Positions 31,786-61,300 of a DNA stretch of 64,000 nucleotides are shown piece after piece. Numbering within the stretch: position 1 is the first letter of the stretch; every line of letters begins with the position of its first letter. Location: positions 184,597 through 248,596 of the forward strand of contig JAJVIK010000011.1 in the NCBI GenBank assembly GCA_022072055.1, in the 5' to 3' direction. Both the position numbers and the translations under genes were made by a program. Below the pieces are notes generated by a model that was given only the letters and a program-made list of their open reading frames with translations, ran no database searches and was not told where the DNA came from. The stretch comes from a bacterium (GTDB lineage Bacteria; Hinthialibacterota; Hinthialibacteria; OLB16).

Positions 31786-33183
31786 TTAACCATGCACCGG
31801 CTCCCCCACCGCGGCGTGAAGGGCCTCCAGGCTCACCTCGGTCAGCGTGGGATGAGCGTGGATGGTGTGGGCCAGGTCCTTGACCGAAACCCGATTCTGT
31901 TTGGCCACCACGAACTCCATGATCAGCTCGGTGGCTTCGGGACCGATGATGTGCGCGCCGAGCAGCTCGCCGGTTTCGGCGTGACGAATGACCTTGGAGA
32001 ACCCATCCGTGTGGCCGAGGGCCATCGCCTTGCCGTTCGCCATGAACGGGGATTTCCCAACTTCCACAGGAATCCCTTGCTCCCTGGCTTCCGCTTCCGA
32101 TAGCCCCACGCTTCCGATCTGCGGATAGCAGTAGGTGCAACGCGGCACCGCGGAGTAGTCGATGGGATGCGCCTCGGCGCCCGCCAAGTGCGAGGCGGCC
32201 AGCCAGCCCTCAACCTCGGCGACATGAGCCAACTGGTAGTTCCCGATGGCGTCCCCGATGGCGTAGATCGAGGGATCATCGGTGCGGCAATACGCATCCG
32301 TTAAGATCACTCCTCGGTCTGTCTTCACTTGGGTGCTCTCCAACCCGATCCCCTCAATCACCGCGCGCCTTCCCACCGCGACCAGACACACATCCCCCTC
32401 GATCCCGAGCTCCTCCTCGCCTTTCTTGTAGATCGCGCGAACCCCATCATCCGTCCGCTCCACCTTCTGAACCGCCACACCTGTGAGGCACTTGATCCGG
32501 GACTTCTTAAAGAAGCGCTCGAGCTGCTGCGACACCTCAGGATCCTCCAGCGGAACCAGGCGTGGAAGGTACTCCAAAATGGTCACCTCGCTGCCGAACA
32601 CATGGTAGATGCTTGCGAACTCCACGCCCACCGCGCCGGAGCCGATCACCAGGAGACGCTTGGGCGGACTCTTCATGGCAAGCGCGCCGACATTCGATAC
32701 AATCCGGTCCTCATCCAGCTCAACACCCGGCAGGCTCTTGGCCACCGATCCCGTGGCGATGATGATCTTGTCCGCTTCAATGCTCCACTTCTCTCCGGAG
32801 GAATCCACTTCGATCCGATTCGAAGTCGCCAGTCTCCCGAACCCGTTCACCACCGTGATGTTGTTCTTCTTCATGAGGAACTGGACCCCTTTGTGAAGGC
32901 GCTCCACGATTCCCCATTGGCGCTGGATAACCGCGCTCCAATCAAAGGTCACTTCCCCCGTCTTGATCCCAAACTGCTCGCTTTCGCGGCAGGTCCGCAA
33001 GACATCCGAATTCTGGATCAGTCCCTTGGTGGGAATACAACCGACATGCAGACAGGTCCCGCCGAGTTTATTCCTCTCGACCAGGGCCACGCTCTTTCCG
33101 AGTTGCGCGGCGCGGATGGCGGCGACATAGCCGCCGGGACCTCCGCCCAACACGGCGACATCAAAACTCTGTGTGGCAGTCAT
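31786..33183 (-). CDS. lpdA: Dihydrolipoyl dehydrogenase
   Basis: 465 residues from ATG 33183; the open frame goes on further 5' but the extra segment is Arg/Ser-rich and non-homologous. FAD- and NAD-dependent E3 subunit that reoxidises dihydrolipoamide. FAD motif VAVLGGGPGGYVAA, redox-active disulfide C44/C49 in GGTCLHVGCIPTK, NAD motif LLVIGSGAVGVEFAS, and the C-terminal active-site His in HTIHAHPTLTEVSLEALH. No E1 or E2 subunit, lipoate ligase or glycine cleavage gene is adjacent. On the minus strand with the unknown polytopic protein and lpxA downstream. Upstream 43 bases separate it from the WaaP-like kinase. Confidence 0.95.
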   Translation of the reverse strand: MTATQSFDVAVLGGGPGGYVAAIRAAQLGKSVALVERNKLGGTCLHVGCIPTKGLIQNSDVLRTCRESEQFGIKTGEVTFDWSAVIQRQWGIVERLHKGVQFLMKKNNITVVNGFGRLATSNRIEVDSSGEKWSIEADKIIIATGSVAKSLPGVELDEDRIVSNVGALAMKSPPKRLLVIGSGAVGVEFASIYHVFGSEVTILEYLPRLVPLEDPEVSQQLERFFKKSRIKCLTGVAVQKVERTDDGVRAIYKKGEEELGIEGDVCLVAVGRRAVIEGIGLESTQVKTDRGVILTDAYCRTDDPSIYAIGDAIGNYQLAHVAEVEGWLAASHLAGAEAHPIDYSAVPRCTYCYPQIGSVGLSEAEAREQGIPVEVGKSPFMANGKAMALGHTDGFSKVIRHAETGELLGAHIIGPEATELIMEFVVAKQNRVSVKDLAHTIHAHPTLTEVSLEALHAAVGEPVHG

Positions 33184-33226
33184 GGCTGGCAACCTTTCCC
33201 TCATGAAGACCGAGCATGTTCCGGCC

Positions 33227-34189
33227 TCAGTAATACTTGTTCTTGAAATACTCGCTGTAGGGAATTCCCAACGCTTTCTCGGTGTGTTTTCTGATTCTTC
33301 CCGCTTTCCGAACAATCCAGCGGATCTGAAGACGCTGCCACCAGCTGAAGCGCTCGGTTTTCCAGTAGGTCCGGAGGAAGCGGATCCGGTCCACCGGACG
33401 GATATAGACCGGGTCCGCCGAAAAGTGAAGAGAGGCCAGGTCCTTGATTCTGGACCGGACCCACCACCCGGGACGGCGACTGGCCCTTTGGACATCGATC
33501 ACCGCAAGCCGTGGAGGGGTCGAAGACCCCTTGGGTTTCACAACGAAGATGTGGCCAAGGTAGAAGTCCCGATGCACCAGACCGGCACGGTGCATTCGCG
33601 CGGCGAGGCGCCCGACCTCCTCGATCGTCCGCCGTTTGTCCTTCACCGCCTCCGGAGAAAGAGGCGGCGCCCAGCTGTGGAAAAGGTGACGCTCCAGCGG
33701 GAGCCCTTCAAGATCGAGGGTGACCACAAAGGAGAGGACCTCGCTCCCCTCTCTCCTCCCTTCCCCCCAGACAATCACTTGCGGAACCGGAATCCCCGCA
33801 TGGCTGAAGAGGGCAAGCTTCTCAACCTCCTTGCGGGCCTCGGTTGCCCTTGGAGCAAGCCCCAGCTTCTGGGCCAGGGTCTCCGCGCGGGGAGGTTCCA
33901 GGTGGCGTTTGACAAAGAGCGCTCCGGGGATGCCGGTAACTTCGATGGCGACCACCGGTCGCTTGGGCCGCATCGAGACCTCTCGGTATTCGACTCGGGC
34001 GAGCGCCATCCAGTCCGAAAAGGATCTCAAACCGACCGCCTCAAGGCGTGGGCGATAGTCCGGGTCGAACCAGACAATTCCCGACTCGGACTCCATCCGT
34101 TCAAACGGCCCCTCGGCGCTTTTCCGCATGACGGATCGGATGATACGGATTAAGGCCGGAAAAGGGAGACTCACGCGCTCATGGGGCAA
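33227..34189 (-). CDS. Lipopolysaccharide core kinase-like protein (WaaP/Kdo kinase family)
   Basis: 320 residues. Eukaryotic-like kinase fold of the RfaP/InaA type: the residues VAIEVTGIPGALFVKRHL around position 80-100 hold the ATP-binding Lys, the catalytic loop is HRAGLVHRDFYLGHIFV, and the metal-binding Asp lies in AVIDVQRASRRP. Family members phosphorylate heptose or Kdo in the LPS core. The start codon lies directly after the stop of the cusA-like gene (no gap), so it is probably the last gene of the Cus operon, although its own promoter inside cusA cannot be excluded. Fits the lpxA-positive envelope. True substrate is unproven. Confidence 0.82.
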   Translation of the reverse strand: MPHERVSLPFPALIRIIRSVMRKSAEGPFERMESESGIVWFDPDYRPRLEAVGLRSFSDWMALARVEYREVSMRPKRPVVAIEVTGIPGALFVKRHLEPPRAETLAQKLGLAPRATEARKEVEKLALFSHAGIPVPQVIVWGEGRREGSEVLSFVVTLDLEGLPLERHLFHSWAPPLSPEAVKDKRRTIEEVGRLAARMHRAGLVHRDFYLGHIFVVKPKGSSTPPRLAVIDVQRASRRPGWWVRSRIKDLASLHFSADPVYIRPVDRIRFLRTYWKTERFSWWQRLQIRWIVRKAGRIRKHTEKALGIPYSEYFKNKYY

Positions 34190-37100
34190 TCAGCCCAGGC
34201 TCCCCCCGAACCTCAATCGCATTTCACGGACCAGGCAATAGGTCACCGGCACGATGAACAGGGTGATGAGCTGGATGCACATCCCCCCGAAACATGGAAT
34301 CGCCATCGGAACCATCACATCCGACCCTTTACCGGTCGAGGTGAGCACCGGGAGCAGCCCCAAGATCGTGGTCGCGGTGGTCATCATGCAGGGACGAATC
34401 CGCCGCATTCCGGCATACAAGGTGGCCTCGCGGATGGACTCGATGGAATCCGGTTTTACCTCCTCGAAACGCTGGTCGAGATAGGTCGCCATGACCACGC
34501 CATCATCCTCGGCGATCCCAAACAGCGCGAGAAATCCGACCCAGACCGCCACCGACAAGTTAATGGCGTGCACCTGGAATAGATCCCGGAAATTCGTTCC
34601 GAAGATCTCGAAGTCCAGGTACCAGTGCTGGGAATACAACCAAATGAATAGGAATCCCCCGGCCCAGGACACAATGATCCCGGCGAACACCATGAAGGTG
34701 GTCGAGATGGTCCGGAACTGGAGATACAGAATCAGGAAACTCAGAAACAGGGAGAGCGGGATCACCACGAAGAGGGTCTTGGTGGCGCGGACCTGATTTT
34801 CATACGAACCGGCGAACCTGTAAAACACGCCCGCCGGCAGACTCAGCTCCCCGGCTTCCTCCTTCGACTTGAGATACTCCTGAGCGGCTTCCACCACATC
34901 CACCTCCGCAAATCCGGCCTTCTTGTCGAAGAGGACATAGGAGACCAGGAAGGTGTCCTCGCTCTTGATCTCCTGAGGCCCGCGGACATATCGAATCGTG
35001 GCGAGCTGCGCGAGCGGGATCTGCGCCGGACCGGCCACCTCGCCGCCCATCGCCGCCGGTTGGGCGCCGGTGGGCGAGGGTGGAGCGCCGCTTCTCATGC
35101 TGGGAACCAGAATTCGTCCCAGTTCCTCCAAATTGTCGCGGAGCTCCCGTTGGTAGCGCACGCGCACGGGGTAACGCTCACGCCCCTCGACGGTCCGGGT
35201 TATGGGCATTCCCCCGATGGCCATCTCAATCACATCCTGAACATCCCGGATGTTGACCCCATAACGCGCGATGGCGTGACGGTCGAGGTGGATTTCGAGA
35301 TAGGGTTTCCCAATCACGCGGTCGGCGATGACCGTGGCGGGTTCCACGCTGGGGACATCCTTGAGGAGCTTCTCGATCTCCAGGCCGGCCTTTTCGATCT
35401 GGTCAAGGGTGTGGCCATAGACCTTGACCCCCATCGCGGCGCGCATGCCGGTCTGGAGCATGACCAAGCGGGTTTCGATGGGTTGGAGCTTGGGCGCCGC
35501 GGTGGAGCCGGGGGTTTGCGCGGCCTTGACAATCTCGTTCCAGATGTCGTCGGCATGCTTGATCTCATCCCTCCAGTTCCGAACCCGATCTCCGGTTTCG
35601 GGATCGATGCTCCATTCCGGTTTATAGTTGATGACTGTCTCCACCATGGAAATCGGGGCCGGATCGAGCGGACTATCCACCCGCCCGATCTTCCCCACCA
35701 CCGAATCCACTTCCGGTATCTGGGCGATCAGTTTGTCCTGCTTGGCGAGGGCATCCATCGATTCCCCGACACCGGCGTGCGGCATCGTGGTCGGCATATA
35801 CAGATAAGAGCCCTCATCCAGGTGGGGCATGAACTCCTTTCCGAGTCCGGGAAACTCGTGGACTCCGGCCACCCACAAGGGGGTTGCGCGCAGGGAGTCC
35901 CCCTTGAGTCCCACCCGGTCCATCAGATGCGGGACCATCCCGAAGGTGCGGTCGAATCCGAGCCACACGGTCAGCCCGAAGAGCAGTATGCTTCCCGGAA
36001 CCATGTAAAAGGTCAGCTTATGGCGAAGGAAGAAGCGCAGGACATACGGATAGGCCGCCTGAAAGAGCACCAGGGCCCCAATGACGGTCCCGTAGATCAC
36101 CAGAACAATAATCAGGTTTTTCGTGAATCCCGGTCCATGCCCCAAAGGCATCCAGCTGTTGGTGAGAATGAATGTCACCACGCCCACCGCGGCGGCGTTG
36201 AAGAAGTAGTGCGTTCCCTTCCTCCACCAGCCCACAAGGCCGGTTTCGATCAGGCGATACAGGCCCATCCCCATCACCAGGAGCCCGAGCCAGAAATTCA
36301 AGGAAGACGCAAGCCACGCTCCCACGCCGAGAGTGAGGGCGGCATGGAAAACCCGGACCTTGAGGGACCGCCTCCGGCGACGGACGATCAAAAGGGTCAG
36401 CGCCGGAACCAGGGCAATCGCCACGATCAGGGAGGCGACCAGGCAGAAGGTCTTCGTGTACGCCAGCGGTTTGAAGAGCTTTCCCTCGGCCCCGATCATC
36501 GTGAAAACCGGAAGGAACGATATGACTGTCGTGGACATCGCGGTCACAATCGCGCTCCCGACCTCCGAGGCCGAGGCGAACACGGTCTCCTTGGGGTCCT
36601 CGTGAGATTTTTCTTTCTCCACTCGGCTGATGATGTTCTCACAGAAGATAATCCCCATGTCCACCATCTCGCCGATGGCGATGGCGATCCCCGCGAGCGA
36701 CATGATGTTGGCGTCCACGTTGAACACTCGCATCAGAATGAAAGAAATCAGAATGGTGAGCGGCAGGAGGCTGCACAGCATCACCGAGCTCATGAAGTGC
36801 GAAAGCATGATGACCACGATCAGGATGCTGGTGAGGACCTCCTCCTTGAGGGCCTCGCGGAGGGTGTCGAGGGTCTCGCGGATCAGCTCGGTCCGGTCAT
36901 AGAAGGGAACCAGACGGATTCGAGACACCGTTCCATCATCGAGTTTCTTTTCGTATCCCCGCAGAACCCATGTGTCCTTGCCGTCCACGACCTCGTGTTC
37001 GCCGATCCGGTCGAGGGTTCCCTTGACATTCCGGATGACTTGGAGCGGGTTCTCCCCGTAGCGGACGACGACCACGCCGCCGACAACCTCGGCGCCCTCC

Positions 37101-38005
37101 TTGTCGAGCACTCCGCGACGAAGCGCGGGTCCCAGGCTCGCCTTGGCCACGTTGCGGATATAGATCGGAACGTTGTCGTTCTCCTTGATAACCGTGTTTT
37201 CAAGGTCTTCCACCGACTTGATGTAGCCGATGCCCCGGACAATGTACTCGACCTGGTTCAGCTCGATGGTGCGCGCGCCGACATCAATGTTGGATCTTCG
37301 GACCGCCTGCGCGACCTCATCCAACGTGACCCGATAGGCGCGCATGGCGTCCGGATCGACATCCACTTGGTATTCCTTGACATGTCCGCCGACCGAGGCG
37401 ATCTCGCTCACTCCATCCGAGCTCTGGAGTGCATAGCGAACAGTCCAGTCCTGAATCGAGCGAAGCTCATCGAGTCCCCATTCCCTACCCTCCAACGTGT
37501 ACCAGAACACCTGACCCAAGCCGGTGGCGTCCGGGCCCATTGTGGGAACCACGCCCACAGGGAGCTCGTTCTGCACGGTCGAGAGTCGCTCGAGGATCCG
37601 CGCGCGGGACCAATAGAACTCGATGTCATCCTTGAAGATGACATTCACGCTGGAGAACCCGAACATCGAGAAGGAGCGGACCTCCTTGACTCCGGGGACC
37701 CCCAGCATGGCCACGGTGAGCGGGTAGGTGATCTGGTCCTCCACATCCTGGGGAGAACGGCCCTCCCAATCCGTGAATACAATCTGCTGGTTCTCGCCGA
37801 TGTTGGGGATCGCGTCCACCGGCACCGGGTTGGTGGGAAAGCCCTTCGAGTCCCACTCGAAGGGCATGACATAGAGGCCCCAGCCGAGGAGCAGAACAAT
37901 CATCAGGAACACGATCAGCGGATTGTCCATGCAGAACCGGATGAACCGGTCGATCAGGGACATGTCACGGGGATCGGGCGGTCGCGGAGTTTCGATAGCG
38001 CTCAT
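34190..38005 (-). CDS. cusA: Heavy-metal RND efflux pump, CusA/CzcA family, with extra central helices
   Basis: 1271 residues, about 220 more than E. coli CusA. Exports Cu(I)/Ag(I)-type or Zn/Co-type ions from periplasm and cytoplasm. HME signatures: N-terminal NPVPVDAIPNIGENQQIVFTDW, EDQITYPLTVAMLGVPGV, TM4 with SLAGIAIAIGEMVDMGIIFCENI, and the C-terminal AEDDGVVMATYLDQRF. The central part (about residues 545-675) holds several extra hydrophobic stretches (AALTLGVGAWLASSLNFWL, AAVGVVTFILTNSW, LIIVLVIYGTVIGALVLFQ). Met residues are present but the three-Met copper site cannot be verified by eye. Start overlaps cusB by 4 bases; the kinase follows without a gap. Ion specificity is inferred from the operon. 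Confidence 0.92.
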   Translation of the reverse strand: MSAIETPRPPDPRDMSLIDRFIRFCMDNPLIVFLMIVLLLGWGLYVMPFEWDSKGFPTNPVPVDAIPNIGENQQIVFTDWEGRSPQDVEDQITYPLTVAMLGVPGVKEVRSFSMFGFSSVNVIFKDDIEFYWSRARILERLSTVQNELPVGVVPTMGPDATGLGQVFWYTLEGREWGLDELRSIQDWTVRYALQSSDGVSEIASVGGHVKEYQVDVDPDAMRAYRVTLDEVAQAVRRSNIDVGARTIELNQVEYIVRGIGYIKSVEDLENTVIKENDNVPIYIRNVAKASLGPALRRGVLDKEGAEVVGGVVVVRYGENPLQVIRNVKGTLDRIGEHEVVDGKDTWVLRGYEKKLDDGTVSRIRLVPFYDRTELIRETLDTLREALKEEVLTSILIVVIMLSHFMSSVMLCSLLPLTILISFILMRVFNVDANIMSLAGIAIAIGEMVDMGIIFCENIISRVEKEKSHEDPKETVFASASEVGSAIVTAMSTTVISFLPVFTMIGAEGKLFKPLAYTKTFCLVASLIVAIALVPALTLLIVRRRRRSLKVRVFHAALTLGVGAWLASSLNFWLGLLVMGMGLYRLIETGLVGWWRKGTHYFFNAAAVGVVTFILTNSWMPLGHGPGFTKNLIIVLVIYGTVIGALVLFQAAYPYVLRFFLRHKLTFYMVPGSILLFGLTVWLGFDRTFGMVPHLMDRVGLKGDSLRATPLWVAGVHEFPGLGKEFMPHLDEGSYLYMPTTMPHAGVGESMDALAKQDKLIAQIPEVDSVVGKIGRVDSPLDPAPISMVETVINYKPEWSIDPETGDRVRNWRDEIKHADDIWNEIVKAAQTPGSTAAPKLQPIETRLVMLQTGMRAAMGVKVYGHTLDQIEKAGLEIEKLLKDVPSVEPATVIADRVIGKPYLEIHLDRHAIARYGVNIRDVQDVIEMAIGGMPITRTVEGRERYPVRVRYQRELRDNLEELGRILVPSMRSGAPPSPTGAQPAAMGGEVAGPAQIPLAQLATIRYVRGPQEIKSEDTFLVSYVLFDKKAGFAEVDVVEAAQEYLKSKEEAGELSLPAGVFYRFAGSYENQVRATKTLFVVIPLSLFLSFLILYLQFRTISTTFMVFAGIIVSWAGGFLFIWLYSQHWYLDFEIFGTNFRDLFQVHAINLSVAVWVGFLALFGIAEDDGVVMATYLDQRFEEVKPDSIESIREATLYAGMRRIRPCMMTTATTILGLLPVLTSTGKGSDVMVPMAIPCFGGMCIQLITLFIVPVTYCLVREMRLRFGGSLG

Positions 38006-40554
38006 CGCGCGACCTCCCCGCCGACCTCGGCCACCGGGAAGGTTTCGCGAAACTCCCCACAGCGGAGCATCTTCGCGCCATAATAGGGATTCGCGATCAT
38101 CTTACCGGTCTGAATCCAGGGGGCCCCGTTTTCCAGCGCCATCGGGCAGAAGGCGTGCTTGACCGGGGTATCGGTCAGATTTCCATAGCGCCGAACCATC
38201 TCGATCAGGACATTGGAAAGCGGGAAGAAATCCTTGCGAAGAGTTTCGATGTCGGCGGCCTTGGAAACGGGATCGAAGGCGACGGTGAGACTTTCTCGAT
38301 CCTTTTTCCACTGTTCTCCGCTCTCCGCGGGCGCGCCCTCGACTGGGAGTTCGGCCAACGCCGCCCCGAGGTCCTTGACCGCCTTGCTTGCCCCCTCGAA
38401 GGAGTCCTGGGAAAGGGCCAACTGAAGCGCGAGATACACACCCAGAACCGCCTTGAATTTGGCGGAAAGAACCGGTCCGAGGTTCACCTCAGGCGCGACC
38501 TTCGGAGCGGGAGTGGGAGTGGGCGCGGGAGCTTCGACCTCGGGGTCGCCCCCAGCCGATTCAAAGGTCCGTCGAAACTCCCCACAGCGGAGCATCGATG
38601 CGCCATAGTAGGGATTTGCGATTTGCTTCCCGGTCTGAAGCCAGAAGGCCCCATTCTCGAGCGCCATCGGGCAAAAGACTTCTTTCAGCGGGTCCGAGGA
38701 GACATTCCCAAAGTGGCCGACAAAGGTGAGCAGGGCATTTGAAAGAGGCGAGAAGGCCGCGCGCAACTCTTCCATCTTCGGGGCCTTGACCACCGCCTCG
38801 ATGGTGGCGCGGAGCTGGACGGAATCCTCGGCCCAAGCCGTGGAGGCCTGTTCCGGGATTCCCCCGCTCGGAAGACTTTGAATGGCGTTGCGGAGGTCCC
38901 CCGCGGCCTTCGCCGCCGCCTCGAAAGAGTCCTCGGCAAGCGCTTTCTGAACCGCGAGATACGCCGCTAGCACGGGTCGGACCTTAAGGGCCTGGGCCTC
39001 GCCGAGGCGCGCCAGGGGTGGCGTGGGCTTGGCCAGCTCCTTGGAGGTTCCGGACCCCGGCGCCTCTTCCCCCATGTCGGGGGGATTCAGCATGCTGGGT
39101 TTGGCCTGAATCTGGAGCGCGCTGTCGATCTTGAAGTTCCCCCGAGTCACCACGCGCTCCCCTTCGGCAAGGCCCCTTTCGACCAGATAGAACCCATCCG
39201 CGCGCGAGCCGAGCTCGATGGTGCGACCGACATAATAGATGCCGTCCTCACGGTTCTCTTCCACATAGACCACCGCGCGCTTCCCGGTGATCAGAGGGGC
39301 GGAGTCGGGGATCACCAGCGGAAGGTTCTCCGGCGAGGCGGTCACCTCGTATCCCAAGGACTTAGCGGTCTCAAGGCGCATGGAGCACACCGGACAGAAG
39401 CCGAAGAGGTCTTCCACCACTTCGGGGTGCATCGGGCAGATCCACTTGTCGGCGAGTTCCGGAGCGATCACTTTGCCGCCGGTCGCGGGGGTGGCGAAAA
39501 TGGTGGCGCGCACGAACATCCCCGGCTTGAGGCGACGGTCCGGGTTGGGAACATTGACCCGCAGCTTGACTGTCCGCGAACGCTCATCGAGCACCGGACT
39601 GATGAAGGAGAGCGTTCCCTCGAAGGTCTCCCCAGGGTAAGCCTCGGTTTCGAAGTGCACATGCTGGCCGTAATGGAGCCATTTCATGTCGGACTCGTAA
39701 GCGTCCAGGAACACCCACACCCCGGACAGGTCGGCGATGGTGTAGATCGGGGTTCCCTCCTCCACATACATCCCCTCCGTTCCCTCCCGCCTGGTGACAA
39801 TGCCCCGAGTGGGGGAATAGATCGTGAGGGTGTCCTTGGGTTTCTTTTCGGCGATCACTTCCTCAACCTGGACCTCGGTGAGTCCCAGTCGCAACAACTT
39901 CCCCTTCGCGGCTTCGATCAAGGATTCCCCGGTCCGCTTCATCAGCGACGAATCGGAGCCTTTCATCTCCTCCTGGGTGCGTATCGCTTGGAGCAGCTCC
40001 TGCTGGGCCGAGTAGAGTTCGGGACTGTAGATCTCCACCAGGTGATCATCCTTACGGACCTCGATCCCGGTATAATCCACGAACAGGTTTTCCAGCCTCC
40101 CGGCCACCCGCGCGCTGATCATCGCGAGTCGGGTCTCATCCGGCGTAATGATCCCCACAAGTCGGACAGTCTTGGTGATCGCGCGACGCTCCACCGGGGC
40201 GGTTTCCACCTCCGCGAGGAAGCGTTCCCGATCCGAGAACTTGAGCTCCGGGACATCGGCATCCCCCGAACCCTCCTCGACCGGGATCAGGTCCATGAAG
40301 CAGATCGGGCACTTCATGTCGCCGGAGGGGAGCTTGATCTGAGGGTGCATGGAGCAGGTCCACCACTTGGGCGCGGCCGCCTCGGTCAGCTTCTCGGACC
40401 CCGAAGCGGCGGAGTGACCCTCAGGGACGGCATCCTTCGTGACAACATCTCCTTGGGGCGCCGAGCGGAGCCCGGCGATGTAGCCGCCCGCCGCAGTGAG
40501 AGCGAGCAGAACAAGGATAAGATAAGGCGTGATCTTGCCTTGCTGGGTGTTCAT
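38002..40554 (-). CDS. cusB: CusB-type periplasmic adaptor with two metal-binding domains and two DUF3347 domains
   Basis: 850 residues, roughly twice a typical CusB. N-terminal helix (LILVLLALTAAGGYIAGL) anchors it. A first heavy-metal-binding domain has the pattern WWTCSMHPQ...KCPICFMDL (about residues 63-95). The adaptor core follows (lipoyl-like IYSPTRGIVTRREGTEGMYV; SPVLDERSRTVKLRVNVPN). A second metal-binding domain lies about residues 368-400 (ICPMHPEVV...FCPVCSMRL). The C-terminus holds two DUF3347-like repeats, at about 525-690 and 700-848, each ending in FCPMALENG.P....GK.IANPYYGA.MLRCGEF. It bridges cusA and the outer-membrane channel and probably hands over metal. Stop and start overlap with both neighbours by 4 bases. 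Confidence 0.9.
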   Translation of the reverse strand: MNTQQGKITPYLILVLLALTAAGGYIAGLRSAPQGDVVTKDAVPEGHSAASGSEKLTEAAAPKWWTCSMHPQIKLPSGDMKCPICFMDLIPVEEGSGDADVPELKFSDRERFLAEVETAPVERRAITKTVRLVGIITPDETRLAMISARVAGRLENLFVDYTGIEVRKDDHLVEIYSPELYSAQQELLQAIRTQEEMKGSDSSLMKRTGESLIEAAKGKLLRLGLTEVQVEEVIAEKKPKDTLTIYSPTRGIVTRREGTEGMYVEEGTPIYTIADLSGVWVFLDAYESDMKWLHYGQHVHFETEAYPGETFEGTLSFISPVLDERSRTVKLRVNVPNPDRRLKPGMFVRATIFATPATGGKVIAPELADKWICPMHPEVVEDLFGFCPVCSMRLETAKSLGYEVTASPENLPLVIPDSAPLITGKRAVVYVEENREDGIYYVGRTIELGSRADGFYLVERGLAEGERVVTRGNFKIDSALQIQAKPSMLNPPDMGEEAPGSGTSKELAKPTPPLARLGEAQALKVRPVLAAYLAVQKALAEDSFEAAAKAAGDLRNAIQSLPSGGIPEQASTAWAEDSVQLRATIEAVVKAPKMEELRAAFSPLSNALLTFVGHFGNVSSDPLKEVFCPMALENGAFWLQTGKQIANPYYGASMLRCGEFRRTFESAGGDPEVEAPAPTPTPAPKVAPEVNLGPVLSAKFKAVLGVYLALQLALSQDSFEGASKAVKDLGAALAELPVEGAPAESGEQWKKDRESLTVAFDPVSKAADIETLRKDFFPLSNVLIEMVRRYGNLTDTPVKHAFCPMALENGAPWIQTGKMIANPYYGAKMLRCGEFRETFPVAEVGGEVAR

Positions 40555-41936
40555 TGGGACTCCTCCAGTGGCGCCTCTTCAGGCGCGGAAAGGGGCGCGG
40601 CGCTGGGCGCGGAACCCACAAGCGGTCGGGCGTTGGTCTCGACCAGGGAGCGCCCCACAAGCGCCTCGATCTTGGCGAGGGCCTGGCCATAACTCGCCGC
40701 CGCGCGGTAGTAATTCTCTTGGAAGGCCAGGAGCTCGCGCTCCGTGTCCACCAACTCCAGGAATGTCGATTCGCCGGCGCTGTAGCCGGTCTCGGTGACC
40801 TCCACGGATTGCCGCGCCTTGGGGAGCAGAACCTCGGAAAGCAGGCGCACCTGACGTTCGGCGTTTCTCAACCGGTAGAGCTCGCTTTGCAGCTCCACCG
40901 CAAGCTCATTCCTCGCCTCCTCGCGCATGCTTTGGGCCTCGCGGACCCCGGACTCCGCCTCGCGCACACCCGCGGCGAGACGTTTCCGGTAAACCGGCAG
41001 GTTGATTCGGAACATCGCGACATATTCATCAGGGACGTCCTCTTTACGGTTGCCGTTCATCCAATTCAGTCCGAACGAGAAATCGGGGTAGTAGTCCTTC
41101 TTGGCGAGATTCACCTGATCGACCGCCTTGCGAATCCGGGCATCCAGACCTTGAAGCTCGGGGTTCGCCTGAAAGGCGATTTCAAGCACCTTGTCGGTTT
41201 CGAGCGCGGCCTCGCGCAAATCGATCTCCGTGGGGGGTGGGAGCGGGGAGGTCGTGGGGCGATTCATCGCGGCGTTGAGGCGCGCTCCCACCGGGGCCCG
41301 TGAATCCTCAAGGTCACGAAGGTCAATCTCCACCTTGCCGAGCTCCACCTGAGCCTTGACCACATCCTGGCTCCCCCCCTTGTCCACTCCATAGCGCGCG
41401 GCCGCCACGCTCTCGAAATGCTTGAGGAGGTCCAGACTCTCCGCCGTGATCCGGATCGTCTGCTCGAGGTAGTAGTATTCGTAGTAGGCATCCTTGACCT
41501 CGGCGCGCAAATCGAGCCTCCTCTTTTCCATTTCCTTCCGGAGCGCCTCGGCTTCGGCGGATTCGATTCGTCCCCGCAGCTCCAGCTTCCCGGGATAGGG
41601 AAACATCTGCATCACGCTGAGTTCCTCTTGCGGCTCCATGGTGCGTTCGAGGTACTCCATGTAGGTGAGCTCGGGATCTTCAAGCGAGGTGACCTGAGGG
41701 ATCTTCTCCAGCGCGCCGCGCCAGCGGTGGTGGGCCGCGCGAAGCCCCGGATTGTTCCGCTCCGCCAGGAGGATCAGATCCTCCAGCGCGGCAACCTGGG
41801 AAAGGTCGCTCCCCATGCCCCCCGATGCCGGGGGCGGCGGCACTGGAACCGAAGCGGGGCTTTGCCCCCAAGAGGGTGAAACCGCGAGTGTTGCTCCCAA
41901 GAAAAGCGGGACGAACCAGGATGTCTTCCCGATCAT
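40551..41936 (-). CDS. cusC: CusC-type outer membrane channel of TolC family
   Basis: 461 residues from ATG 41936 (AAGGGGAAC upstream); the open frame goes further 5' but the leader MIGKTSWFVPLFLGATLAVSPSWG is a proper signal peptide. TolC/OEP helical repeats: LEDLILLAERNNPGLRAAHHRW, then EKRRLDLRAEVKDAYYEY and LREAALETDKVLEIAFQANPEL, with a long helix MREEARNELAVELQSELYRLR in the second half. Forms the outer-membrane exit of the Cus pump. The stop overlaps the start of cusB by 4 bases. The sequence 42109-42124 upstream contains a GC-rich near-palindrome around CCTAGG that might be an operator; about 200 bases separate this gene from the Cys-rich protein. Confidence 0.9.
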   Translation of the reverse strand: MIGKTSWFVPLFLGATLAVSPSWGQSPASVPVPPPPASGGMGSDLSQVAALEDLILLAERNNPGLRAAHHRWRGALEKIPQVTSLEDPELTYMEYLERTMEPQEELSVMQMFPYPGKLELRGRIESAEAEALRKEMEKRRLDLRAEVKDAYYEYYYLEQTIRITAESLDLLKHFESVAAARYGVDKGGSQDVVKAQVELGKVEIDLRDLEDSRAPVGARLNAAMNRPTTSPLPPPTEIDLREAALETDKVLEIAFQANPELQGLDARIRKAVDQVNLAKKDYYPDFSFGLNWMNGNRKEDVPDEYVAMFRINLPVYRKRLAAGVREAESGVREAQSMREEARNELAVELQSELYRLRNAERQVRLLSEVLLPKARQSVEVTETGYSAGESTFLELVDTERELLAFQENYYRAAASYGQALAKIEALVGRSLVETNARPLVGSAPSAAPLSAPEEAPLEESQ

Positions 41937-42133
41937 GTCAGTTCCCCTTTTGGACCTCTTGTCCGCGATGGCGCGCGGAATGTGGATGGGAGGGCGAGCC
42001 TCGCGCCGTTCCCCCCGCGCTCGGGGGCAAGGAGACAACTCGGAGCGCGGAAAATCAACGCACCCAGAGAAACGGGTTGTATCCCGGAAACGGTCGGTGG
42101 GCAGACCTCTCCCCTAGGAGGGAGCAAGGCGGG

Positions 42134-52568: not shown

Positions 52569-52649
52569 GGGATTGAAAAAAATCGGCCCGCATGTTGTTC
52601 AACCCGGGGGTCCTTGGGTAGGATGGTGGCGTTGAACAGGAGCCCTTGT

Positions 52650-55600
52650 ATGACCCGCCGCCCGCTTTCTGTCTTTGTCGGAATTGCCCTCCTGGCGCCT
52701 CTTTCCGCCCTGGGAGAGCCACGGGATGAAATCCTCGATTCCATTCGAGGCACGCTCGATCAAATCGCTCGCGATCCCAAGCTTCTGGAGGACACCCTCG
52801 CCACCCTCGACAGTCAGCTGAACCGGACGCGAGCCGATTTGGAAGCCCTGGAACAAGAGATCGGGCGGGTCCGGACTCAGTTGGACTCCGCGCTGAGGGA
52901 GCAGGGGGCTCTGCTCGCCAAACAGAGCCACACCGAGGCGGCGAGCGCCGCGGGTGAAACAGAGATTGTCTTCGGGCGGGATATCCGCCCCATCCTTTCA
53001 CAAAACTGTTTCACCTGCCATGGCCCGGATGAGAAACAGCGCAAGGCCGGTCTTCGTCTGGATCAGGCCGATTCGGCCCGTAGCAAGCTCAAGTCCGGGT
53101 TGGTCGCCATCCAGCCGGGAAACCGAGAGGGGAGCGAGCTTTATCGGCGGATCACCTGCACCGATCCCGACGAGGTCATGCCCCCGAAGGACAGTCACAA
53201 GAGCCTGACCCCAGGGCAGATTGAGCTCCTCGGACGTTGGATTGACGCCGGCGCGGTGTACACCGGACACTGGGCCTTTGAGCCGCTCAACCATCCCGCT
53301 CCGCCCACATTGACAAACACGAAGTGGCGCCGGAATGAAATTGACGCCTTCATCCTTGCCGCGATGGAGTCCAAGGGGATTGAACCCAATCCCGAAGCGG
53401 ACCGTCGCACGCTGATCCGACGCCTTTCATTCGATCTACTGGGGCTTCCGCCTTCCCCGGAGGAGGTGGACCAATTTGTGAGCGATTCATCCCCGGACGC
53501 CTACGAACGGTTGGTGGACCGGTTGCTTGAAAGCCCTCATTTCGGCGAACGCTGGGCGCGTCACTGGCTTGATTTGGCTCGTTTCGCCGAGAGCCACGGT
53601 TACGAGCAGGATTACGACAGGAAGTTTGCCTATCACTACCGCGACTTTGTCATCCAGGCCTTCAATCAGGACTTGCCCTACGACACCTTCGTGAAGTGGC
53701 AGCTCGCGGGGGATGAGCTCTCTCCGGACAATCCTCTCGCGCTCAAGGCCACAGGATTCCTCGCCGCCGGAGTCCACAGCACTCAGATCACCAAGAACCA
53801 AGCCGAGAAAGAGCGCTATGATGAGCTCGATGACATGTCCCGCACCATGGGGGTGGCGATGTTGGGACTCACCATTGGTTGCGCTCGCTGCCACGACCAT
53901 AAGTACGATCCGATTACCACGACCGATTACTATCGCCTTCTCTCCACTTTCACGACCACTGTCCGCTCCGAGATCGATGTCCCCGTGGAGGAGGAGGTCT
54001 ACAAGCAGGAGCGCGCGCGCTGGGAGAAGGAGCACACACCCTTGCTGGAAGACTTGGCCAAGTTTGAGTCCGAGGAGCTCCCCAGCCGATTCGAGGAGTG
54101 GTTGAAGTCCAATCCCACCCCCACTCCGCCGGTAAAATGGGAGGTTCTTGAGCCCACCAGTTACCGCGCCGAGGGGGGCGCCTCGCTCCTGGCGCTCGGC
54201 GATGGCTCGTTCTTGGCGTATGGGAGCAACTCGGAGCAATACTCTTTCGTGATCCCCTCGAAGCTCGAGGGCATCACCGCGATCAAGATCGAAGCGTTGC
54301 GCCACGATTCGCTTCCCCGGCAAGGTCCCGGAAGGGGTCGGAACGGGGAATTCGCGTTGTCGGACCTGCATGTCACCCTCGAATCCCTCACCGGCGCGGA
54401 GGACCCGATTGAGTTGACTTTGGTGGGGCCGAAGGCCACGTCCGCGCGGGATGGAAACCCGGTTTCGAACGCGGTGGACATGGATCGCCACAGCGCCTGG
54501 ACCATCCCCGGCGGAACCGACACCACCTCGGTGTTCGAGATTGAGACCCCGGTGAGCTTTGAAACCCATGTGGTCATCCGGATCAAGCTCAGCTTTGCGC
54601 CGGCAGCATCGATGGGAAGGATCCGACTGTCCGCCACAACCTCGAAACCTCCGATTGACCTTGATTCGGACAAAGTCCCCGACGAGGTGCGCTCGATTCT
54701 AGCCGAACATTCCGTCAACGCCACTTCGGAGCTCTCCTCAAGTCAACGGGAATCGGTGTTGGCCTGGTATAAGACCACCGATGGGCGCTGGCAGGACCTC
54801 ACCAAGAGGATTCGGGACCACCTGCGCGTGGAACCGAAGCCGGACGGGGTCAAGGTCCTGGTGGCCAGCGAGGGAGTCCCGCCGGTTCGAAACCACACCC
54901 AGGGGGTTGATTTCTACCGCGAGACCTACTTCCTCACGCGCGGCGATCCGAAGCAGAAGCAGGGTGTGGCCAATCAAGGCTTCCTGACCCTCCTCACCAA
55001 GGCCCCGGAGAAGGAGAAGCGTTGGCAGGTTCCTCCACCGGAGGGTTGGAGAACTTCTTACCGGCGGTCCGCCCTGGCGAACTGGATCACCGATGTGGAT
55101 TTCGGGGCGGGACATTTGCTCGCGAGGGTGATCGTGAACCGCCTCTGGCAACACCACATGGGACGCGGGATTGTCGGGACACCCAGCGATTTCGGGTATC
55201 AGGGGGATTGGCCCACTCACCCCGAGCTGCTGGATTGGCTGGCCTCGGAACTGATTCGCGGGGGCTGGAAACTCAAACCGATTCATCGGTTGATTCTGAA
55301 CAGCGCGGCTTATCGGCAGAGTTCCGACCACGATGAAGTGAAAGCCCGGATCGACCGCGAACGGAAGTTGTTCTGGGGCCACCCCAGGCGACGGTTGGAG
55401 GGGGAGATTATTCGCGACTCAATGCTGGCGGTGAGCGGACTGCTCGATCCGAGGATGCACGGACCTGGGACCCTCGATCCGAATCACCATCGAAGGAGCA
55501 TCTACTTCACCATTAAGCGCAGCCGCCTCGTTCCGATGATGACCCTGTTCGATTGCCCGGATAGCGTGCAGAGCATCGCCGCGCGTCCCATCACGACCAT

Positions 55601-55901
55601 CGCCCCTCAGGCGCTCATGCTCCTCAACAACTCCAGCATCCGGGACTACGCTGTCGAGTTCGCGAAACGAGTCGCCCCCAAGGATGGAGATGGAATGGAG
55701 GGCGCAGTTCGGGCGGCCTATCGTCTCGCGATCGCGCGCGACCCCTCCGAGGAGGAGCTCCGGGACACCTTGAGGTTCGTGGAGGACCAGGCGGCCTCTT
55801 ATGGGAAGGATGGAAAGAGCATGGAGGAGGCGCGCTCACTCGCCCTTGCGGATTTCTGCCAGGTCGTTCTTAACTTGAATGAGTTTGTCTATGTGAACTA
55901 G
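52650..55901 (+). CDS. PSCyt1/DUF1549/DUF1553 protein (planctomycete-type cytochrome)
   Basis: 1083 residues from ATG 52650 (CAGGAG upstream). Signal peptide RPLSVFVGIALLAPLSALG. A coiled segment (about 25-95) precedes the PSCyt1 c-type haem motif CFTCHGPDEKQRKAGLRLDQ with C120, C123 and H124, then the DUF1549 domain (WRRNEIDAFILAAMESKGIEP, DRRTLIRRLSFDLLGLPPSPEEVDQF, ERWARHWLDLARFAES), a variable insertion of about 300 residues (DUF1553-flanking, sandwich-like) and DUF1553 (ALANWITDVDFGAGHLLARVIVNRLWQHHMGRGIV, LLDWLASELIRGGWKLKPIHRLILNSAAYRQS). Hundreds of such proteins occur in planctomycetes, usually paired with DUF1501. No DUF1501 gene is adjacent. Confidence 0.9.
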   Translation: MTRRPLSVFVGIALLAPLSALGEPRDEILDSIRGTLDQIARDPKLLEDTLATLDSQLNRTRADLEALEQEIGRVRTQLDSALREQGALLAKQSHTEAASAAGETEIVFGRDIRPILSQNCFTCHGPDEKQRKAGLRLDQADSARSKLKSGLVAIQPGNREGSELYRRITCTDPDEVMPPKDSHKSLTPGQIELLGRWIDAGAVYTGHWAFEPLNHPAPPTLTNTKWRRNEIDAFILAAMESKGIEPNPEADRRTLIRRLSFDLLGLPPSPEEVDQFVSDSSPDAYERLVDRLLESPHFGERWARHWLDLARFAESHGYEQDYDRKFAYHYRDFVIQAFNQDLPYDTFVKWQLAGDELSPDNPLALKATGFLAAGVHSTQITKNQAEKERYDELDDMSRTMGVAMLGLTIGCARCHDHKYDPITTTDYYRLLSTFTTTVRSEIDVPVEEEVYKQERARWEKEHTPLLEDLAKFESEELPSRFEEWLKSNPTPTPPVKWEVLEPTSYRAEGGASLLALGDGSFLAYGSNSEQYSFVIPSKLEGITAIKIEALRHDSLPRQGPGRGRNGEFALSDLHVTLESLTGAEDPIELTLVGPKATSARDGNPVSNAVDMDRHSAWTIPGGTDTTSVFEIETPVSFETHVVIRIKLSFAPAASMGRIRLSATTSKPPIDLDSDKVPDEVRSILAEHSVNATSELSSSQRESVLAWYKTTDGRWQDLTKRIRDHLRVEPKPDGVKVLVASEGVPPVRNHTQGVDFYRETYFLTRGDPKQKQGVANQGFLTLLTKAPEKEKRWQVPPPEGWRTSYRRSALANWITDVDFGAGHLLARVIVNRLWQHHMGRGIVGTPSDFGYQGDWPTHPELLDWLASELIRGGWKLKPIHRLILNSAAYRQSSDHDEVKARIDRERKLFWGHPRRRLEGEIIRDSMLAVSGLLDPRMHGPGTLDPNHHRRSIYFTIKRSRLVPMMTLFDCPDSVQSIAARPITTIAPQALMLLNNSSIRDYAVEFAKRVAPKDGDGMEGAVRAAYRLAIARDPSEEELRDTLRFVEDQAASYGKDGKSMEEARSLALADFCQVVLNLNEFVYVN

Positions 55902-55948: not shown

Positions 55949-58195
55949 ATGCCTGAGAAAACGGGCTGGTTGTTCGATTGCTACCCCAGGGGATCGGTCA
56001 TGGTCTTCTGGTTCATACCTGAAGGAGACGGGCCGCGCCTGCGTCTGATCCGCCCTTGGCTTCCCACCGGGTATGTAGAGACGGACAGTCCCGGCTCCAT
56101 GCGTCGACTTGAGGCCGGCATCAGGCGGAGTCGCACGTTTCAACTCGGAGAGGAGGTTCTTAAACCCGATTTCTGGACCGGGGAAGCGCGCCCCCTGCGG
56201 GAACTCCGAGTCTTGAACATGGACAGCGCCTACGGCGACCTCATTGGGTTGTATCGCCGTCACCCCGAGGTCTCCTACTACAATAGCGACATCCCCTTTG
56301 AACAGCTTTACGCCTACATCGAGAACCTGTTCCCCACAGCTTACTGCCGCTTCTCCCATGAGGGGGAGGCGCTCCGGGAATGTGTCGCGCTGGAATCGCC
56401 CCGTGACACGGACTACCCGGCGATGCCGCTGCGAGTCGCCAAGCTGCACGGCGATGCCTACTTGGGGGGTCCGAATCCGCTGATTCGGTTCTTGGCTCTG
56501 GAAATGGGTGACCGAACGTTGGAATGGGACTTCTCCTCGCCCGAGGATGCGCTGCGATCGCTAAACGGTTATCTCGCGGACTGGGATCCGGACCTTCTCG
56601 TCACCGCGGGCGGAGACAGCATTCTGATGCCCTGCCTGTTTTCACTCGCGGCGCGTCTTGGGATTCCCCTGGAGCTCGACCGCGAGCCGAACATCCATCG
56701 CGCGCTCGACCTCAAGGGGCGTTCGTACATGTCCTACGGACGAATCGTCTACCGAGATCCGGACTACCCGCTGTGGGGTCGCTGGCACATCGACCGGAGA
56801 AACTGCTTCCTGGATCACGAATCGGAGCTCGACGGACTCATCGAAGCCTCCCGGGTGAGTCGCCTGCCCGTCCAGCGCATGGCGCGACGCTCCATCGGCA
56901 CGGGGATCTCCTCGGTGCAGATGGCTCATGTCTGCCGGAAGGGTTACGCAATCCCCTGGAAGAAGTCCCGCCCGGAGGGGTGGAAAAGCGCGCTCCAGTT
57001 GCTCAAATCGGATCGAGGTGGACTGACCTTCCAGCCGACTCCAGGTGTTTACGAGAACGTGATCGAGCTCGACTTTGTGTCGATGTACCCTTCGATCATG
57101 ACGAACTTCAATGTCTCGCCCGAGACCATCAACTGCCCATGCTGCCCGGAAAGCTCTCGAAGAGTCCCAGAACTCGGATATCGAATCTGCGAAAAACGGA
57201 GCGGTTTGATCTCGGAGGCGCTTGTCCCGATCCTTGAAAAGCGCATCGAGTACAAGCGGCGCATGCGAGCCGCCACGGACCCGACGGAGCGGAAGCGCTA
57301 CAAGAACCGTCAAACCGCCCTCAAGTGGCTCCTGGTGTGTTGCTTCGGGTATCTGGGATACAAAAACGCCCGCTTCGGAAGGATCGAGGCGCACGAATCG
57401 ATCTGCGCCCTTTCGCGAGAAATGCTCCTGCGGACCCGCGACCTGTGCGAGGCGCGGGGTTTTTCCGTCCTCCACTCGCTTGTGGATTGTGTTTGGCTAC
57501 GACGCTCTCGGCAATCGAAGGAAGAGGTGGAGGATTTGTGCCGAGCCATCGAGACTGAAACCAACCTGCCGATCATGGTGGAGGGGTTCTATTCGTGGCT
57601 GGTGTTTTTCCCTTCGACTCAACATGGCGATCTCCCCGTTCCGGCGCGATATCTCGGAAGGTTCGAGGATGGTTCGCTCAAGTATCGAGGAATTGAGATC
57701 CGTCGCAGCGACCAAGCTCCGTATGTCCAAACCACGCAGGGGGAGCTGCTCGACCTCCTCTCGCGAGCCGATTCTTGGGCGGCCTGCCGGCGGATGGGAA
57801 AGAAACTCCGCGCCTGTGTCGCCAAGGCGCGGAAACGGCTTGAGCGGCGCGAGGTTCCGCTCTCGGAACTGCTCCTTAAGCGGCAGCTTTCGCGAAGCGC
57901 CGAGGAGTATAAGGGAAACTCGATGAGCGCCACCGCGGCCCGCATGGCAGCGAAGGTCGGAAAACGGCTGATCGGGGGACAGGATGTCTTTTTTGTGGTC
58001 ACGAACTCCAATGCGGGCAATCCCGAGGAGCGAATTTGCCTCCTGGAGCTCCTTCGCCCCGAGACCAACTACGATGTGGATTTCTATGTCGAGCAGTTGA
58101 GACGGATGGCCTCAAACCTTTTGGACCCCCTCTTGGGGGAAGAGGAGCGAGGCGAGCGGTTCTTGTTCAAGAGTCTCGGGATCAAGCAGCGCTGA
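55949..58195 (+). CDS. Divergent family-B DNA polymerase, PolB2-like
   Basis: 748 residues from ATG 55949; a GTG at 55940 would add three. N-terminal domain like archaeal PolB (RRHPEVSYYNSDIPFEQLYAY), then a decayed 3'-5' exonuclease region without the DIET motif (DPDLLVTAGGDSILMPCLF resembles exo motif II). Polymerase domain: motif A ELDFVSMYPSIMTNFNVSP with Asp375; a CPCC pair; motif B TALKWLLVCCFGYLGYKN with Lys459 but no Asn-Ser; motif C HSLVDCVWL with Asp513. In RB69 polymerase the motif A Asp and second motif C Asp bind metal; both remain, only the first motif C Asp is lost. I infer an active or partly active, non-proofreading lesion-bypass enzyme. No replication genes nearby. Confidence 0.82.
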   Translation: MPEKTGWLFDCYPRGSVMVFWFIPEGDGPRLRLIRPWLPTGYVETDSPGSMRRLEAGIRRSRTFQLGEEVLKPDFWTGEARPLRELRVLNMDSAYGDLIGLYRRHPEVSYYNSDIPFEQLYAYIENLFPTAYCRFSHEGEALRECVALESPRDTDYPAMPLRVAKLHGDAYLGGPNPLIRFLALEMGDRTLEWDFSSPEDALRSLNGYLADWDPDLLVTAGGDSILMPCLFSLAARLGIPLELDREPNIHRALDLKGRSYMSYGRIVYRDPDYPLWGRWHIDRRNCFLDHESELDGLIEASRVSRLPVQRMARRSIGTGISSVQMAHVCRKGYAIPWKKSRPEGWKSALQLLKSDRGGLTFQPTPGVYENVIELDFVSMYPSIMTNFNVSPETINCPCCPESSRRVPELGYRICEKRSGLISEALVPILEKRIEYKRRMRAATDPTERKRYKNRQTALKWLLVCCFGYLGYKNARFGRIEAHESICALSREMLLRTRDLCEARGFSVLHSLVDCVWLRRSRQSKEEVEDLCRAIETETNLPIMVEGFYSWLVFFPSTQHGDLPVPARYLGRFEDGSLKYRGIEIRRSDQAPYVQTTQGELLDLLSRADSWAACRRMGKKLRACVAKARKRLERREVPLSELLLKRQLSRSAEEYKGNSMSATAARMAAKVGKRLIGGQDVFFVVTNSNAGNPEERICLLELLRPETNYDVDFYVEQLRRMASNLLDPLLGEEERGERFLFKSLGIKQR

Positions 58196-58255: not shown

Positions 58256-58645
58256 CTACATCCAGCTCTTCGCGAGCACGATGCCCGCCCGGACCGCGAC
58301 CAGGCCGAGAAATAGGCTCCCGAAGATATTGGTCAGCGCCAAGAGCCAGCTTCCGTCTTCAAATAACGCCTGAGTCTCAAACTCGAAGGTCGAGAAGGTG
58401 GTGTAGGCCCCGAGAAACCCGATGGCGAAGAATAGGCGGATCTGATCCGAACCCGGAACCAACCGCTCGCCGACCCATGTCGCCAACACTCCGAGGAGAA
58501 ACGAACCGGAGACATTGATGATGAAGGTTCCGTAGGGAAATGTGACGCCGAGTAGGCTGGCGCTTCCGCGCGCGATGAGATACCGCGCAATCGCACCAAG
58601 AAAACCCCCACATCCGACGAGCAGACAGGCCATCAGTTCTTTCAT
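58256..58645 (-). CDS. crcB: Fluoride exporter CrcB
   Basis: 129 residues, four membrane helices. The Fluc/CrcB channel exports fluoride ions. Signatures: GGFLGAIARYLIAR, FPYGTFIINVSGSFLLGVLATWV and AIGFLGAYTTFSTFEFET. Here a single subunit is present, which would form the antiparallel dimer. Its ATG overlaps the stop of the preceding DUF190 gene by 4 bases, and both DUF190 genes are coupled in the same way, so it is the last gene of the arsenic/fluoride cluster. No fluoride riboswitch was found in the 115 bases before the first DUF190 gene. Confidence 0.93.
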   Translation of the reverse strand: MKELMACLLVGCGGFLGAIARYLIARGSASLLGVTFPYGTFIINVSGSFLLGVLATWVGERLVPGSDQIRLFFAIGFLGAYTTFSTFEFETQALFEDGSWLLALTNIFGSLFLGLVAVRAGIVLAKSWM

Positions 58646-59442: not shown

Positions 59443-60315
59443 TCAAGCCCGGCCACGCGTCGGCTTCGTCGCGTGGATCAACAGGCTCGTGATGAAGTCG
59501 CTCGCCTTCGCGCCGGGTGGCAGGTCCTCGACAATCTTCCGATAGAGCGGATCCTCCCAGTCGCTCATGGCCTCGATATATCGGCTGTTTGTCTCCATCC
59601 GGACCTCCGACAGCCCGGCCTCGCGCGCCATGCGCTCGGTGTCGGCCACCAACACCGCCCCCGCGATGCACCCCACCAACGCCTCGACTATCTCCAGGAC
59701 TTGGGGAGGGACGGGACGCAATAGGGCAAGATCGGAGATGGACACCCTCCCGCCGGGCCGCAGGACTCGGTGAATCTCGCGCCAAACCTGGGGTTTGTTC
59801 GGAGACAGGTTAAGAACGCAGTTCGACAGGATCACATCCACGCTGTTGTCCGCGAGGGGAAGGTGTTCGATCTCCCCCAACCGAAACTCGACATTGTCCA
59901 GGCCCGATTTCTCGCGGAAGGACGGGATCGATCTCCGCGCGCGGGCAAGCATGTCCGGGGTCATGTCCACTCCAATCGCGCGTCCAGTCGGTCCGACCTT
60001 CCTGGCCGCGATGAAGATGTCGAAGCCCGCGCCGCTGCCGAGGTCCGCCACAACCTCACCGGGCCGCAGTGAGGCCAGCGCGACCGGATTCCCACAGGAA
60101 AGCCCAAGGTTGGCCCCTCCGGGGAGGCTTCCGAGATCGTCCTCCGCATAGCCGATGGCCATGGCGAGATCGGAGGCCTGCTCCGGAATGCTCGGCCCGC
60201 AACAGGAAGAGGTCCCGCAACATCCCGGCTGTTCCGAGCGAGCGATCCTTCCGTACCCTTCCCGCACCGTCGCGCGGATCGCTTCCTGTGTTTCAAGGGG
60301 CGGCGCTTCTTGCAT
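59443..60315 (-). CDS. arsM: Arsenite S-adenosylmethionine methyltransferase ArsM
   Basis: 290 residues. Methylates As(III) to volatile or excretable methylarsenicals. Conserved arsenic-binding Cys are seen at C74 (GLSCGNP), C166 (LSNCVLNLSPNKP) and C216 (VGCIAGA), and the SAM site is DLGSGAG (91-97), with GVDMTPDML and HRVLRPGGRV. An N-terminal Cys cluster (GCCGTSSCCG, residues 31-40) is extra and could bind metalloid. Follows arsC by 20 bases, in an arsR-arsC-arsM operon. No ArsB, Acr3 or ArsP exporter is visible here, so methylation may be the main exit from the cell. Confidence 0.94.
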   Translation of the reverse strand: MQEAPPLETQEAIRATVREGYGRIARSEQPGCCGTSSCCGPSIPEQASDLAMAIGYAEDDLGSLPGGANLGLSCGNPVALASLRPGEVVADLGSGAGFDIFIAARKVGPTGRAIGVDMTPDMLARARRSIPSFREKSGLDNVEFRLGEIEHLPLADNSVDVILSNCVLNLSPNKPQVWREIHRVLRPGGRVSISDLALLRPVPPQVLEIVEALVGCIAGAVLVADTERMAREAGLSEVRMETNSRYIEAMSDWEDPLYRKIVEDLPPGAKASDFITSLLIHATKPTRGRA

Positions 60316-60335
60316 GTTCCACTTTTTCCTTTCAA

Positions 60336-60779
60336 TCAGCCGTTGAGGTTGTCGGATAAGTTCTCGATAAACAAGCGAATTTCATCCCGGACCCGCCGGT
60401 AGGGAGCGAGACGCTCCTTCTCGGTCTTGGCGCGCCGCGCAAGCTTGGGGGGATCCTCAAAGCCAACATGAACCACCTTCGTTCGCGCCGGGAAGGTCGG
60501 GCAACTCCGGTTTGCATTGGAGCAGACTGTGACCACGTAGTCAAAGACGATCCCCTCAAACTCATCCAGACGCTTGGAGCGCTGCGTGGAGATGTCCACT
60601 CCCGCCTCGGCCATCACGCGGACAGCGTCCGGATTCAATCCATGGGCCTCGATTCCGGCCGAATGCGCCTCAAATTGGTCCCCTTTGAGACGGCGCGCCC
60701 AGCCTTCCGCCATCTGGCTGCGGCAAGAGTTCCCGGTGCAGAGAAAGAGAATCTTCGGACGAACGGGCGGGGTCGGCAT
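60336..60779 (-). CDS. arsC: Arsenate reductase ArsC, thioredoxin-coupled type
   Basis: 147 residues from ATG 60779; a TTG 15 bases upstream is an alternative. Low-molecular-weight phosphatase fold that reduces As(V) to As(III). P-loop LFLCTGNSCRSQMAEGW with catalytic C14 and the adjacent C19, and the resolving Cys pair C86 and C93 in VCSNANRSCPTFP, which mark the thioredoxin-dependent class rather than the glutaredoxin one. Lies between arsR and arsM. Product arsenite would be passed to ArsM. Confidence 0.94.
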   Translation of the reverse strand: MPTPPVRPKILFLCTGNSCRSQMAEGWARRLKGDQFEAHSAGIEAHGLNPDAVRVMAEAGVDISTQRSKRLDEFEGIVFDYVVTVCSNANRSCPTFPARTKVVHVGFEDPPKLARRAKTEKERLAPYRRVRDEIRLFIENLSDNLNG

Positions 60780-60861
60780 GCCGGCTCCATTCAATGGTTC
60801 ACTTCGTCAATTAACGAAGGATGTCCTCCCCAGTCACGGTGTCAAGGAAGGCCACGCCGAA

Positions 60862-61239
60862 TCAGGCGGCCTCCCGGCAGTTGTTGGAGTAGTGGTTGCA
60901 GAGCTCTTCGAGGCAGGTTTCACGCACCCTCTTCAGTTCGCGATCATCCCTAAGGGTGGTCTTGTCCCGACCCAAGGATTCATGCACCCACCTGAGGGCA
61001 AGCTCGACCAACCGGGTCCGCTCTTCGGGAAGGTGATGGTAGATCCATCGGCCCTCTTTACGCGATTCGATCAAGCCGGCCTGTCGCAAGATGGCTAAGT
61101 GTTTCGAGACAGTCGAAGGCGCGAGTTGAAGCATCTCGATGACCTGGCACACGCAGAGTTCTCCTCCCCGGAGGAACATGAGCGTCCTCACCCGATTGTC
61201 GTCGGCCAGCGCCTTGGCAATGCACATGAACTCTTTCAT
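60862..61239 (-). CDS. arsR: ArsR-family metalloregulator
   Basis: 125 residues from ATG 61239, chosen for the GGAGAGA ahead of it; ATG at 61251 and 61266 are also open. Winged-helix repressor of arsenic genes, released by As(III). The metal site is in the alpha-3 helix ELCVCQVIEMLQLAPSTVSKHL with C29 and C31, and extra Cys lie at C6 and in the C-terminal ETCLEELCNHYSNNC. HTH: LAPSTVSKHLAILRQAGLI. Upstream of arsC by 82 bases, and 61 bases downstream of the ABC remnant on the same strand. A likely operator in front of it was not identified. Confidence 0.93.
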   Translation of the reverse strand: MKEFMCIAKALADDNRVRTLMFLRGGELCVCQVIEMLQLAPSTVSKHLAILRQAGLIESRKEGRWIYHHLPEERTRLVELALRWVHESLGRDKTTLRDDRELKRVRETCLEELCNHYSNNCREAA

Positions 61240-61300
61240 GATTCTCTCCATCCGTTTCTTAATCATTGGTCTCGCCGCAATCGGTTGACTGGGATCAGCT

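Follow-up and report, generated by a model that had tools for sequence, protein, structure and literature searches.

A gene for a family-B DNA polymerase lies in the analysed stretch of bacterial DNA (64 kb, here called the window), and its product lacks the first of the two motif C aspartates. This raises two questions: whether such a protein is a working polymerase and, given that no recognizable repair gene stands beside it, whether it acts alone.

The polB2 gene and its surroundings

The polB2 reading frame (Table 1) is open throughout and stop-free when read in its own genome. An in-frame GTG at 55940 offers an alternative start that adds three residues; all residue numbers given here count from the ATG at 55949. 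The product matches the Pfam family DNA_pol_B (6.3e-38), and its best NCBIfam model is NF004416, with a score of 387 bits that falls under the curated cut-off of 516. Orthologues are found in two sister genera (G001 and G002, which together with the window genome, G000, form family f1), at 68% and 60% identity. Variation at codon position 3 (0.57-0.61) is about 2-3 times that at positions 1 and 2 (0.20-0.34). Its conservation in both sister genera and this excess of third-position variation show that polB2 is a maintained gene.

The flanking genes are unrelated to polB2. No iRadA or PPB2 gene lies between the PSCyt1/PSD1 gene and polB2, and a Pfam scan of 28 window proteins revealed no repair protein other than PolB2 itself. 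Two metal-related loci occur in the same window. An arsenic-type cluster (59443-61266, minus strand) encodes an arsM-like methyltransferase, a low-molecular-weight phosphatase/arsenate-reductase-like protein and an ArsR-like regulator, the last named by sequence only, and lies close to two DUF190 genes and the CrcB gene. A heavy-metal RND efflux operon (31786-42038, minus strand), with an AcrB-type pump, a CusB-like adaptor carrying a heavy-metal-binding domain and an outer membrane channel, adjoins a gene for a pyridine nucleotide-disulphide oxidoreductase.

Table 1. Features of the polB2 locus, in window positions
Feature	Position	Strand	Basis or remark
PSCyt1/PSCyt2/PSD1 (DUF1549/DUF1553) protein, unrelated upstream neighbour	52614..55901	+	Pfam; 47 bp before polB2
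polB2, bacterial G2/PolB2 family-B DNA polymerase, 748 aa	55949..58195	+	ATG at 55949
D355-R356-G357-G358, PolB2-specific D(K/R) motif	57011..57022	+	alignment of 24 PolB2s
D375, motif A catalytic Asp, in ELDFVSMYPS	57071..57073	+	alignments
K459, motif B Lys	57323..57325	+	alignments; within ALKWLLVCCFGYLGYKN
H509-S-L-V-D513-C514, motif C	57473..57490	+	alignments
CrcB-like protein, unrelated downstream neighbour, convergent with polB2	58256..58645	-	Pfam

Active site, fold and family membership

Motif A and the motif B lysine are in place, and the Asn-Ser of motif B is replaced by VCC. Within motif C (HSLVDCVWL, residues 509-517), L511 occupies the position of the first aspartate and D513 that of the second. 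In family-B polymerases such as that of RB69, the metal ligands are the motif A aspartate and the second motif C aspartate. Sequence reading and alignment reveal no Exo I DxE at the expected position, and Exo II (N..FD) is likewise missing from the protein, which has AGGDSILMP there.

An alignment of 24 PolB2s, the window protein included, places these changes in a family context. The relatives sampled comprise the two sister genera, 10 Sumerlaeota genomes, other bacteria, haloarchaeal plasmids and Leptospira phages. Neither the first motif C aspartate nor the motif B Asn-Ser is present in any of the 24. The motif A aspartate, the motif B lysine, the second motif C aspartate and D(K/R)GG are kept in all of them, and the motif C histidine (H509 here) in 23. 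Addition of three canonical phage polymerases to the alignment leaves D375, K459 and D513 invariant. The traits shared by the aligned PolB2s are those published as characteristic of archaeal B2 and bacterial G2 polymerases (PMC7544198). To judge from these alignments, the odd active site of the window protein is normal for the PolB2 family.

The same residues bear on whether the protein is catalytically dead and retained for a structural or scaffolding role. The family was first interpreted in this way (cited in PMC7544198), and the first motif C aspartate and the motif B Asn-Ser are truly gone. However, Sulfolobus Dpo2 lacks the same aspartate and is as active in primer extension as the replicase Dpo1 (PMC8764526), and a dead enzyme would not need the three residues that stay invariant across PolB2s and canonical enzymes alike. 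A dead subunit is thus a highly improbable account of the gene.

Structure prediction agrees with the alignments on the overall architecture. A first model, built from 6 sequences (pLDDT 68.6; TM about 0.35 to family-B polymerases), was replaced by one from 9 sequences that is of middling confidence (pLDDT 75.9, pTM 0.68) and not reliable at residues 244-296, which score below 50. The predicted fold matches crystal structures of family-B polymerases over its full length, with a best E of 1.5e-36 and TM values up to 0.66. In the model, motif A lies on strand 366-376, and D513 occupies the turn of the motif C hairpin that joins strands 506-511 and 514-518, a predicted placement as in canonical enzymes. 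N-terminal, degenerate exonuclease, palm, fingers and thumb regions are all recognizable, and the window protein is, as modelled, a full-length PolB2. Escherichia coli Pol II (3k59, TM 0.66), one of the structure matches, shares the bacterial origin and the family-B fold but differs in its intact DxD, its active exonuclease and its membership of another group (G1).

A phylogeny built with IQ-TREE unites the three family f1 proteins in one clade (100/100), placed beside a Sumerlaeota PolB2 (99/98), and separates the canonical polymerases from all PolB2s (100/99). By the sequence evidence, the window polymerase is an ordinary bacterial G2/PolB2. The first-pass annotation had proposed the PolB2 type, and this assignment holds in the tree, with all family sequence marks that were tested present. 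Its reading of D375, K459, D513, the leucine at the first motif C aspartate and the cysteine after D513 is correct from the ATG, and alignment and sequence reading confirm the loss of the motif B Asn-Ser and of Exo motif I. Its description of the enzyme as divergent does not survive, since motifs B and C are typical of the family, nor does that of a minimal catalytic core, given the complete set of regions.

A proposed mutasome encoded in two places

PolB2 has been linked in print to two proteins: iRadA, which is homologous to Rad51/RadA but lacks the ATPase site, and the small helical PPB2, whose N-terminus carries an MGRT motif. Bacterial PolB2 operons have been reported solely in the order iRadA-PPB2-PolB2, and the D(K/R) motif is the contact for the N-terminal arm of PPB2 in the published model (PMC11791011). 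Profiles for both partners were built from intact operons and used to search whole genomes. Within the window genome, PPB2 is found at G000:C6:46989-47234 (E 8.5e-29), and iRadA adjoins it at C6:47323-47748 (E 1.9e-23). This PPB2 begins MGRTIPTF, and inspection of the iRadA reveals no Walker A motif. The polB2 gene lies on another contig, C1 (652.9 kb), at 240.5 kb, and the pair at 47 kb on C6; these positions put at least about 287 kb between the two loci. The first-pass annotation had stated that no partner stands nearby, which is right locally and wrong for the genome as a whole.

Both sister genera show the same split. There, polB2 stands alone among unrelated, differing genes, iRadA and PPB2 are paired elsewhere, and the MGRT arm is intact in all three genomes. 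At all other PolB2 loci whose upstream sequence is long enough to tell, PPB2 directly precedes polB2, and iRadA precedes PPB2 wherever the contig reaches. Other genes stand between iRadA and PPB2 in one genome (G238), as the published survey reports for some operons. The window genome thus holds iRadA and PPB2 but not the adjacent order iRadA-PPB2-PolB2. An assembly artefact is rejected as the cause of the split, since the window genome has both loci in the interior of long contigs and the same split is seen in all three genera.

Co-occurrence of the parts extends beyond family f1. Of the 14 genomes of the class, three have PolB2, and precisely these three have PPB2. Among 386 bacterial genomes, PolB2 is present in 12 (a count that leaves out two canonical family-B polymerases, in G126 and G263) and PPB2 in 11, all of them among the 12; in the sole exception, G110, polB2 lies at a contig end. 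A tree of iRadA and PPB2 groups the f1 genes together (99.6/100) inside a group of f1 and Sumerlaeota (99.9/99), as in the PolB2 tree. The co-occurrence and the agreement of the trees indicate that the parts have been kept together by descent though the genes are apart.

These data also bear on whether this PolB2 has lost its mutasome partners and acts alone. None of the three f1 genomes has either partner gene adjacent to polB2, and no clear C-terminal clamp motif was found in the window or G002 proteins. Yet all three genomes encode both partners, with the MGRT arm intact, and the D(K/R) motif is retained in the polymerase, which makes a stand-alone enzyme highly improbable. The likely alternative is that an ancestral iRadA-PPB2-polB2 operon was broken in family f1, with polB2 now lying apart and every part kept. 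What is unusual in f1 is this split gene arrangement, whereas the polymerase itself belongs to a known family. The window protein shares with bacterial G2/PolB2 and its proposed mutasome the second motif C aspartate alone, the motif C histidine, the D(K/R) motif, the decayed exonuclease, the partners and the phylogenetic group (PMC11791011, PMC7544198); it differs in the distance of polB2 from the iRadA-PPB2 pair.

Complete iRadA-PPB2-PolB2 cassettes also occur on Leptospira phages and IMG/VR contigs (L068 3183-6259, L069 3186-6454, L098 1692-5469), so the PolB2 mutasome also moves on mobile elements; in L098, the cassette is followed by a gene that is SRAP-like by its sequence. Two viral PolB2s from IMG/VR, relatives outside the aligned set, carry D-M-GG (L099 2238-4876) and D-Q-GG (L100 2138-4630) in place of D(K/R)GG, and the former is still preceded by PPB2 with its MGRT. 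A separate viral-contig family-B polymerase (L110 1490-4837) has an apparent intein inside motif C (YGD / TDS). A search of viral contigs with a haloarchaeal PolB2 query gave no match. One genome holds a second PPB2 gene (G356:C466:8093-8350, L084), and its PolB2 is split between the ends of two contigs.

Proposed function and regulation

Sulfolobus Dpo2 provides the functional comparison; our literature search turned up no biochemical work on any bacterial PolB2. Dpo2 extends primers beyond lesions and shows no exonuclease activity (PMC8764526). Like the window protein, S. islandicus Dpo2 lacks the first motif C aspartate (IID in Dpo2) and proofreading, whereas it is archaeal, only about 555 aa long and has lost much of the exonuclease region (PMC8764526, PMC7390963). 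Given its family-typical active site and its homology to this active enzyme, the window protein most probably functions as a translesion extender that does not proofread, and the published activity of the family despite the missing aspartate (PMC8764526, PMC7544198, PMC11791011) lends support to the lesion-bypass role suggested in the first-pass annotation.

We consider it very probable that the window protein serves as catalytic subunit in a PolB2 mutasome, active and proofreading-deficient, whose partners are encoded elsewhere in the genome. D375 and D513 would bind the catalytic metals, and the enzyme would extend primer ends beyond DNA lesions without proofreading. By analogy with the published system, it would assemble with iRadA, which has no ATPase motifs, and a PPB2 trimer. 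Catalytic activity, complex formation and lesion bypass are here inferred by homology.

The set of other polymerases differs within family f1. The same search that detects a Y-family polymerase in 11 of 14 control genomes detects none in the window genome or in G001, and one Pol IV-like gene in G002. The window genome is 96.6% complete, and a Y-family gene may therefore have been missed. S. islandicus, in contrast, has the Y-family Dpo4 alongside Dpo2. The search for DnaE yielded one full protein in the window genome, and G001 and G002 each hold a further divergent DnaE-like protein.

All three f1 genomes possess lexA, with a candidate LexA operator, TGCA-N6-TGCA, upstream of it (L095, L096, L097). 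A degraded form of this candidate, TG[AC][AT]-N6-TGCA, is found just before iRadA in all three (for example L050 8854-8867, minus strand), in none of 16 other iRadA upstream regions and once in the whole window; the operator pattern was defined after the sequences had been looked at. Upstream of polB2 there is no match to the candidate operator, and the sequence directly before the gene shows no promoter-like site. The putative operator before iRadA is a lead only. A broader scheme would be one in which the f1 mutasome is the only dedicated translesion polymerase and is under two-piece control, with polB2 outside damage control and a damage-induced iRadA-PPB2 pair switching the polymerase on by supplying the missing subunits. 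This combined proposal is doubtful.

The retention of the PolB2 partners even where the operon is broken carries the wider meaning of the locus. Physical linkage does not explain the co-occurrence in family f1, which therefore gives independent support, from the genomes, to a joint function of the three proteins. Moreover, in genomes that have PolB2 and no Y-family enzyme, PolB2 may carry translesion synthesis, and such genomes would offer a clean setting for the study of bacterial PolB2 function.
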